A DNA stretch of 64,000 nt from Betaproteobacteria bacterium (GTDB lineage Bacteria > Pseudomonadota > Gammaproteobacteria > Burkholderiales > Ga0077523). This document shows positions 22,574 to 25,123 of this stretch, one piece after another (the stretch's first letter is position 1; every line of letters begins with the position of its first letter). The notes beneath the pieces were generated by a model, which was given only the letters and a program-made list of their open reading frames with translations, was not told where the DNA came from and ran no database searches. Both the position numbers and the translations under genes were made by a program. The stretch is taken from assembly GCA_016125475.1 (NCBI GenBank), contig WGLR01000010.1:186001-250000 (forward strand), written 5' to 3'.

Positions 22574-23032
22574 ATGCAGAGCAGGAGACTGGACACCGGG
22601 AAGCGGGCATTTCTGGCCGGGGCGACGATGGCCTTTCTGGGGGTCGTGGCGCCGGTCACCGCGGCGGAAGAACCGCAGAAGGCCGTCGAGGGGCAGTATT
22701 GCGAGACCTGGGCGCGCAACGGCGCGATGGGCGCGAAGGTGCAGCGTCAGGGCGCGGGACGCGAGATCGAGTACATCACCGAGAACCAGCTCCGCTACCT
22801 GCTCAAGCACAAGGCGGAGAGCGAGAAGCTCTACCTGCTGAAGCGGGAGTACACGCCGGAGGAACGCCGCTTCCTGGAGGAGTCGATGCTCCATGGCTAC
22901 GATCGCATGGACAAGTGGTCGGCTGCGCATCCGGGCACGGAGCCCGACTACGAGACCTGGGTGGCGGAGGACGTCGCGGATTGCCTGAAGAACCTGCCGC
23001 CTTCCGTGCGGGATCTCATGCGCGAGAAGTGA
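22574..23032 (+). CDS. Small exported protein of unknown function
   Basis: A 152-residue protein from the ATG at 22574, with GAGGGAG upstream. Residues 1-~31 form a signal peptide (RRLDTGKRAF, then a hydrophobic run ending VTAAEEP). The mature part is mainly helical and charged, has two cysteines (QYCETW and VADCLKN) that could form a disulfide in the periplasm, and no membrane segment. I do not recognise a family. It sits between the pseudouridine synthase and the photolyase-like gene. Confidence 0.8.
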   Translation: MQSRRLDTGKRAFLAGATMAFLGVVAPVTAAEEPQKAVEGQYCETWARNGAMGAKVQRQGAGREIEYITENQLRYLLKHKAESEKLYLLKREYTPEERRFLEESMLHGYDRMDKWSAAHPGTEPDYETWVAEDVADCLKNLPPSVRDLMREK

Positions 23033-23066: not shown

Positions 23067-24200
23067 GTGAACACCGGATTCCCTCCCACCCGCGACGAGG
23101 CGCTCGCGCGGCTCGCCGCGATCGATCCTGCCCGCTATGCACGCACGCGGAACGCCCTCGACGGTGCGGTGACACGTCTCTCGCCGTATCTCACGCACGG
23201 GATTCTCACGGTTCCGGAGGTGGCGAGGGCCCTTCTCGCGCGCGGCGTCCCGCCCGGGCACAGGCTCCTGTTCGAGCTTGCCTGGCGCGAGTACTGGCAC
23301 CACGTCTGGAGAGAGTGCGGCGACGGGATCTTTCACGCGGTGCGGCCGGAAAACGAGCCCCCCTGTGTGCATCGCGAAGTTCCGCCCGACGTCCGCGAGG
23401 CCCGCACGGGTGTGCCCGTGATCGACGCCGCAGTGCGTGCGCTGTACGAGGACGGCTACGTGCACAACCACGCACGCATGTGGCTCGCGTCGTACCTCGT
23501 CCATCTCAGGAAGGTCGACTGGCGCGCCGGCGCGCGCTGGTTCCAGGCGCATCTGCTCGACGGCGACCTCGCCTCGAACACCCTTTCCTGGCAGTGGGTG
23601 GCCGGCACCTTCACGGGCCGGCGCTACCTGTTCAACGACGAGAACGTCCGGCGTTACGCACCGGACCTGTCGCGGGCCGGCACGGCGATCGATCGCTCCT
23701 ACGAGGAACTGGACCGGATCGCCGACGGAGCGGTGCCGGTCGGTCCGGAGCCGGGGGCACCGGCGGCGGGCGTCGAGGAACCCGGGACATGCCCCACGAT
23801 TCCCGTCGTGTCCACGCCCGTGCCTCCGGTGCGGGAGCTTCGGGTCGCCCTCATACACCCGTGGATGCTCGGCGACCGTCCGGACTGTGACGTCGCCGTC
23901 GGCGTGATCCACGTTCCCCACCACGCCGCACATCCCTGGTCCCGCAGACGATGGTCGTTCGTGCTCGAGCGGATGCGGGCCGTGACCGACGCGATCCACG
24001 CGGGCGATCTCCGGGACCTGGCCGGAATCCTCGCGTCCGCCCGGTCGCGAGAGTCGATCGGGACGCAGTGTCCCGGCTACGCCGAGGCGCTCGGGAGCGT
24101 GTGCGATGTGGTCGTGCCGGCACCGCGGGCATTCACCGAACCGGCGCGCCCGTGCCGTTCATTCAGCCGGTACTGGCAGCAGGTGTCACTGGCGCCGTGA
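23067..24200 (+). CDS. Photolyase/cryptochrome-like protein with the FAD domain at the N-terminus
   Basis: A 377-residue protein starting at a GTG with no strong ribosome site. Residues 1-~215 are the FAD-binding domain of photolyases: TRLSPYLTHGILT, ELAWREYWHHVW, a GVPVIDAAVRALYEDGYVHN segment, NHARMWLASYLV and GDLASNTLSWQWVAGTF. The usual N-terminal antenna domain is missing. After a Pro/Gly-rich linker (~220-253), residues ~255-377 look like a reduced alpha/beta domain (RVALIHPWML, AVGVIHVPHHAAHPW, RRWSFVLERMRAV) reminiscent of the antenna domain, as if the domain order were swapped. DNA repair, or light or redox sensing, are possible. Confidence 0.85.
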   Translation: MNTGFPPTRDEALARLAAIDPARYARTRNALDGAVTRLSPYLTHGILTVPEVARALLARGVPPGHRLLFELAWREYWHHVWRECGDGIFHAVRPENEPPCVHREVPPDVREARTGVPVIDAAVRALYEDGYVHNHARMWLASYLVHLRKVDWRAGARWFQAHLLDGDLASNTLSWQWVAGTFTGRRYLFNDENVRRYAPDLSRAGTAIDRSYEELDRIADGAVPVGPEPGAPAAGVEEPGTCPTIPVVSTPVPPVRELRVALIHPWMLGDRPDCDVAVGVIHVPHHAAHPWSRRRWSFVLERMRAVTDAIHAGDLRDLAGILASARSRESIGTQCPGYAEALGSVCDVVVPAPRAFTEPARPCRSFSRYWQQVSLAP

Positions 24201-24229: not shown

Positions 24230-25123
24230 TCAGGCGTCGCAGACCGGGCCGAGCTGGGCGCGCAGGATCGCGACGTTCGTGACGAGTCCGGGCAGCAGCC
24301 ACTGGAACAGCCGGGCCACCGATGTCACGTCTCCCCGGTCTGCATCGGCGGCGGCAGCTTCACGAAGCACCGCGGCATCGAGTGAAGAAGGGTCAGGGAG
24401 CTCGCGCGTGACGATGATCGTGGCCCTGTCGTGCACGGACCTGCAGACGGGTTCATAGCGTTCCGAGGCCACACAGGGCTTCAGCCCTGCCCATGCCTGC
24501 GCGAAATAGGACGGCCAGCGCGCGAACGCGCGATAGTCCGTGTTGACGAAAGGCAGGCCCAGCGTGGCCTTGATGTCCGCAAAGACTGCACGCGTCGGCG
24601 CGTCGGCATGGTGTGCCTCCATGAGCACGAGCGGTGCAGGCGAGGGTGTCGCGTCGCGGTGCCGCGATGCCGCGGGTCCGGGCGGATGACCGGACAACCG
24701 GCCGCCCTCCAGCAGCACCCTCACGAGTGTCGCGATCAGCAGGTACGGAAAGTTGCCGCGCGAGAAGATCTCGACGACGTTCCGGATCGCGTCGATCTCC
24801 CGCCCGGCGTATCCCGTGCGCGCCAGTGCAGGCAGCAGCGAAGGCACCTGGAAGGCGTCCACCTGCTGCTCGGTGAAGATGCGCAGGCTGCCGCACGCCG
24901 CCACGAAGGACTCGCTCTCGACGATCGGGCGCAGGCCGCGCCAGAGTTCCCGGAAGAAGTTCGGGTAGTGCGCGAGCGCCATGGTCACCACGCCCATCCA
25001 GGGAACATCCAGCGCGTGCTTCATTTCCTCGTACCAGGTGTGCAGCTGACCGCTCGCGAGGTATTCGGGCACGGGGTGAATCGCCGGGAGACGATCGGGG
25101 CGCAGACGGACGAGGTCACTCAT
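24230..25123 (-). CDS. DehI-type 2-haloacid dehalogenase family protein
   Basis: A 297-residue helical protein with an internal duplication: residues ~30-90 (WYEEMKHALDVPWMG, HYPNFFRELWRGLRP) repeat as ~180-240 (VFADIKATLGLPFVN, RWPSYFAQAWAGLKP). This pseudo-dimer is typical of group I dehalogenases (DehI). Asp196 in NTDYRAF and Asn124 in RGNFPY match by position the water-activating Asp189 and Asn114 of Pseudomonas DehI. Such enzymes hydrolyse 2-haloalkanoic acids of either chirality. A HAD-type dehalogenase lies 1.2 kb away. Family members without proven dehalogenase activity exist. Confidence 0.85.
   Translation of the reverse strand: MSDLVRLRPDRLPAIHPVPEYLASGQLHTWYEEMKHALDVPWMGVVTMALAHYPNFFRELWRGLRPIVESESFVAACGSLRIFTEQQVDAFQVPSLLPALARTGYAGREIDAIRNVVEIFSRGNFPYLLIATLVRVLLEGGRLSGHPPGPAASRHRDATPSPAPLVLMEAHHADAPTRAVFADIKATLGLPFVNTDYRAFARWPSYFAQAWAGLKPCVASERYEPVCRSVHDRATIIVTRELPDPSSLDAAVLREAAAADADRGDVTSVARLFQWLLPGLVTNVAILRAQLGPVCDA

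Follow-up and report, generated by a model that had tools for sequence, protein, structure and literature searches.

The open reading frame at 23067-24200 of the window (the whole 64,000-nucleotide stretch of betaproteobacterial DNA that was analyzed) encodes a further example of the FAD-first photolyases already published for other bacteria between 2020 and 2022. Its C-terminal domain, as modeled, is a reduced photolyase antenna (α/β) domain, and the domain order is inverted. The best explanation overall, and one that we consider probable, is a light-driven DNA photolyase of the NewPHL/SPL/Phr6-7 kind that would act on cyclobutane pyrimidine dimers (CPDs) and whose C-terminal domain would not serve as a light antenna.

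Inverted FAD-first photolyases were published as NewPHL in 2020 (Emmerich et al. 2020, doi 10.1093/nar/gkaa1147) and as SPL in 2021 (Xu et al. 2021, doi 10.1093/molbev/msab191). Phr7 has been described as an N-terminal FAD domain followed by an atypical short photolyase domain (Z-domain), and Phr6 as a fused inverted form (mBio 2022, PMC9426592). The inverted order is reported for cyanobacterial Phr4/5, Phr6, and Phr7, as well as for NewPHL/SPL. The first-pass annotation held that all characterized photolyases carry the antenna first, which these proteins contradict. Its proposal of a permuted C-terminal antenna domain holds for the reduced antenna fold and the inverted order but not for novelty, since NewPHL/SPL, Phr7, and Phr4/5-Phr6 had been described. 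The existence of inverted photolyases was already known, and the window family leaves that picture unchanged. A large fused FAD-first family, mainly from Burkholderiales, is now placed beside the split and FeS-bearing forms, and together these form a useful series on how the antenna domain moved and shrank.

Gene and domain organization

The gene has a GTG start, 377 codons, and a stop at 24198-24200. Homologues that match it in length and domain order (43 to 59% identity) lack internal stops, which indicates a genuine gene. AlphaFold2 modeled the whole protein with a mean pLDDT of 95.1 and a pTM of 0.92. As the first reading of the DNA had proposed, a Pro/Gly linker (approximately residues 224 to 253) leads into an antenna-like β-α domain of ~120 residues (Table 1).

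Table 1. Features of the FAD-first photolyase gene in the window
Feature	Coordinates	Strand	Basis
Whole photolyase gene, 377 aa	23067..24200	+	ORF coordinates; homologues of same length
N-terminal photolyase FAD-binding domain, residues 1-223	23067..23735	+	PF03441; model alignment; active-site mapping to E. coli photolyase
Pro/Gly-rich linker, residues 224-253	23736..23825	+	Variable length and poor conservation in alignment; few secondary-structure elements in model
Putative C-terminal reduced antenna-like α/β domain, residues 254-377	23826..24197	+	Model; VIA; hhalign via Phr5-type domain
W175-Q176-W177 codons	23589..23597	+	Equivalents of E. coli W382 and W384 (flavin photoreduction, CPD contact); invariant in 55 homologues

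FAD-binding domain and active-site residues

The FAD domain begins at approximately residue 5 with no domain before it; the first-pass annotation had placed its start at residue 1, likewise with no antenna domain ahead of it. PF03441 matches residues 69-218 (Pfam; E = 1.1e-29), and residues 1-223 of the whole model align to photolyase FAD domains with Foldseek and VIA (Z up to 17.6). Sequence searches against solved structures retrieved classical photolyases and DASH proteins, nearly always across the FAD domain, and no chain named NewPHL. An antenna domain (PF00875) ahead of the FAD domain was found neither by Pfam nor in the model, a layout that differs from that of class I and DASH proteins, and the NCBIfam DASH and class I models score far under their cutoffs on the window protein.

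Residue equivalences were taken from the alignment to E. coli photolyase (1dnp). The E. coli residues E274, W277, N341, R342, W359, and Y365 correspond to E70, W73, N134, H135, W152, and W158, respectively, and D372, D374, N378, W382, and W384 correspond to D165, D167, N171, W175, and W177, respectively. All of these positions are invariant in a 55-row alignment of homologues, save E70 (53/55), N134 (54/55), and H135 (54/55). Judged from this alignment, the window protein retains most class I repair residues. The invariant W175 and W152 form a Trp pair where class I enzymes have a triad, and no conserved Trp occurs in the W306 region of the alignment. W158 is also invariant among the 55 homologues and could extend the Trp chain. 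No conserved Cys column that would correspond to FeS cysteines was found in the FAD domain of the 55 homologues.

The FAD fold and most active-site residues are common to the window protein and class I CPD photolyases (E. coli and Anacystis), and the N-terminal domain of the latter is the match of the window C-terminal domain. Unlike class I enzymes, the window protein has an inverted domain order, an antenna domain of ~120 rather than ~160 residues, no RDLR motif, no W306 equivalent, and His in place of E. coli R342. NewPHL/SPL and Prochlorococcus Phr7 resemble it in having the FAD domain first, no N-terminal α/β domain, and a short C-terminal photolyase-like domain. Prochlorococcus Phr7 likewise lacks FeS cysteines, and the Trp pair replacing the triad is shared with Dinoroseobacter NewPHL, for which it has been reported.

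Fold and kinship of the C-terminal domain

Modeled alone, residues 254-377 form a domain of ~120 residues with five strands and alternating helices (pLDDT of 94.6). Foldseek returned no match at an E value of ≤0.001 for this domain, and the best rows were weak, mixed Rossmann proteins. After VIA re-alignment, the best 19 matches were all N-terminal α/β domains of photolyases and cryptochromes (Z of 6.3 to 8.3), many of them spanning the whole C-terminal domain, and the next rows were universal stress proteins and dehydrogenases (Z of 5.5 to 6.2). Best Z values of 7 to 8 are common even without kinship, so more weight is given to the profile comparison and to the recurrence of one family's domain in each of the 19 top rows.

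In hhalign, the window C-terminal domain matched a Phr5-type domain from Deinococcus and from genome G075 (P of 93, E = 3e-7, 118 columns), and the Phr5-type domain matched classical antennas (P of 97, E = 9e-12, 134 columns); the links from window domain to Phr5-type domain to classical antennas are collinear. Compared directly, the window domain and classical antennas gave no match (P of 0.7), and a merged profile matched classical antennas with a P of 81 (E = 1e-5). Among the controls, SDR, DCC/COQ7, amine-oxidase, and MerR profiles reached ≤0.5%, 30 column-shuffled profiles reached at most 19.5%, and the reversed profile reached 0.5%. PF00875, sought directly in the C-terminal domain, was detected in 0 of 55 members, and a sequence search of the C-terminal profile against the PDB returned nothing.

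The 19 VIA matches and the profile chain through an intermediate Deinococcus/alphaproteobacterial domain bear out the idea of a domain swap, and the Rossmann-like antenna fold expected for residues 255-377 in the first-pass annotation is present in the model. Recruitment of an unrelated Rossmann-like domain to the FAD domain would agree with the missing direct match to PF00875 or classical antenna profiles, with the weak, mixed Foldseek matches, and with the Z values of the universal stress proteins and dehydrogenases. Nevertheless, such an origin is extremely improbable given the photolyase/cryptochrome identity of the best 19 VIA matches and the collinear alignments via the Phr5-type domain (itself a PF00875 match; E = 2e-4), with controls near zero.

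Strands 1 and 2 of the window domain are separated by ~12 residues, and neither the RDLR motif nor the first helix of class I antennas is seen in the alignments. This suggests that the domain carries no antenna pigment, or none of the class I type. Five residues of the domain are invariant (W266, H286, W291, R295, and S365). These residues and the retained antenna fold would suit a FAD-first photolyase whose C-terminal domain has kept a second chromophore (flavin, folate, or other) as an antenna, but the missing motif and helix and the short strand 1-2 region make that rather unlikely.

Relatives and phylogeny

A scan of species genomes yielded at least 575 candidate stretches encoding relatives of the window protein, although the scan was pattern based and some candidates may be ordinary photolyases. 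The best 80 of these align over nearly the full length of the window protein, and most belong to Burkholderiales or to other lineages of Betaproteobacteria. Ten homologues picked for alignment were 29 to 59% identical. Within the genus, 6 of 12 genomes carry a near full-length copy, and no relative was found in viral contigs.

The FAD-first arrangement occurs in several other forms: as two neighboring genes in Deinococcus QL22 and in genome G075, as fused Deinococcus proteins of 456 to 472 amino acids with FeS-type cysteines, as a plasmid-borne Persicobacter protein, and as proteins of 388 to 420 amino acids in a mainly alphaproteobacterial clade, presumed to be NewPHL. In Deinococcus QL22, the gene that follows the FAD gene is separate from it and scores against PF00875 with an E value of 2.3e-4, below the curated cutoff. 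That mini antenna gene is annotated as “hypothetical protein.” Split FAD-first photolyases lie at L021 (2390-3681) and L029 (minus strand), where a FAD gene with FeS-type cysteines is directly followed by a separate mini antenna gene.

FAD-domain trees group the window family with FeS-type FAD-first proteins (support of 98/92 and 97/91) and set the presumed NewPHL apart as a clade of their own (100/99 and 99/100). A single clade of all FAD-first proteins appears, weakly supported (74/29), when the tree is rooted on (6-4) photolyases. In these trees, the window family is placed as sister to the FeS-type FAD-first proteins and outside the presumed alphaproteobacterial NewPHL clade, in a comparison built on presumed NewPHL sequences. 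The C-terminal domain of the presumed NewPHL showed no direct profile similarity to that of the window protein in hhalign. The split Phr4/Phr5 and fused Phr6 of Synechococcus/Cyanobium and their Deinococcus counterparts share with the window family the FAD-first order, a C-terminal domain homologous by profile, and FAD domains in one clade, but they keep FeS cysteines, whereas the window family has none and a shorter C-terminal domain.

Proposed function

The window protein is most likely a single-chromophore CPD photolyase. The N-terminal helical domain would bind FAD, and photo-excited FADH- would donate an electron to a flipped-out CPD held in a pocket of W73, W177, and E70, with N171 predicted to lie near flavin N5. 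Photoreduction of the FAD would run via W152 and W175; no counterpart of the distal class I Trp is present. The C-terminal domain, presumably the antenna domain moved behind the FAD domain and shrunk, probably covers the FAD domain as a structural lid or contacts DNA rather than serving as a light antenna, since it has neither the class I RDLR motif nor the first helix. CPD repair in single-stranded DNA is cited for Dinoroseobacter and Methylobacterium proteins in PMC9426592. Single-stranded DNA is perhaps the preferred substrate context, and CPDs in such DNA would be the likely substrate, a role of NewPHL and DASH-type enzymes elsewhere.

Repair by a photolyase is favored by the conservation of class I repair and electron-transfer residues in the 55 homologues and by photolyase neighbors in 36 of 90 loci. 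Against this explanation stand the placement outside the presumed NewPHL clade and the clustering with FeS-type proteins, some of them predicted to act on (6-4) lesions, the replacement of R342 by His, and the results for Synechococcus phr4/phr5, which shielded E. coli against UV-C to an extent that did not differ significantly between light and dark.

Gene neighborhood

A second photolyase lies within ~3 kb of the gene in 36 of the 90 window-family loci; by a rough estimate, <1% would be expected for a 7-kb stretch of a genome carrying two or three photolyases. The neighbor is of the PF04244 (6-4) type in 22 loci and a PF00875+PF03441 protein in 21, with both in some. Other recurrent neighbors in the 90 loci were DUF3429 (19), SDR (10), MerR (9), and DCC/COQ7 (8) genes. 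None of these recurrent neighbors, photolyases included, occurs beside the window copy. The window genome encodes one further PF03441 protein (a 506-amino-acid frame) and one PF04244 photolyase, ~10 kb apart on contig C38, and no second FAD-first protein.

A (6-4) photolyase, as the literature predicts for the FeS-bearing Phr4/5 and Phr6, would fit the clustering of the FAD domain with FeS-type FAD-first proteins and the prediction for Phr4/5. This substrate seems distinctly unlikely given the absence of conserved FeS cysteines, the retention of the E. coli CPD-contact residues W277, W384, and E274, and the presence of a PF04244 (6-4)-type photolyase elsewhere in the window genome and adjacently in 22 of 90 loci. 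A cryptochrome-like blue-light photoreceptor, with a C-terminal domain that signals to a partner instead of a repair function, is very improbable: although the FAD domain and Trp pair would permit photoreduction and 9 of 90 loci have a MerR regulator nearby, the residues of the CPD pocket (W73, W177, and E70) are invariant or almost so across the 55 homologues, and the common neighbors are repair photolyases. Finally, the Burkholderiales family might be a separate FAD-first line in which the C-terminal domain, with its invariant Trp, His, and Arg, binds a novel chromophore or docks on the photolyase of the adjacent gene, an arrangement that we regard as unlikely.

The antenna-first photolyase (PF00875+PF03441) that adjoins the FAD-first gene at L022 (3576-5057) and 21 of 90 loci is divergent (branch of 2.26 in the tree), and the Persicobacter FAD-first gene adjoins one of similar appearance. 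The DUF3429 membrane protein adjoins FAD-first photolyases of both types (L003, L007, L058, L101, and 15 more loci; L026, 1933-2382).

In the window, a small frame of 152 amino acids with a signal-peptide-like start (22574-23032, plus strand) ends 35 bases upstream of the photolyase gene. It has no Pfam match, neither plasmids nor 11 further genomes of the genus contain a counterpart, and in those genomes its pairing with the photolyase gene is not conserved. Just downstream, on the opposite strand, 24230-25123 encodes a DehI-type halocarboxylic acid dehalogenase (PF10778).
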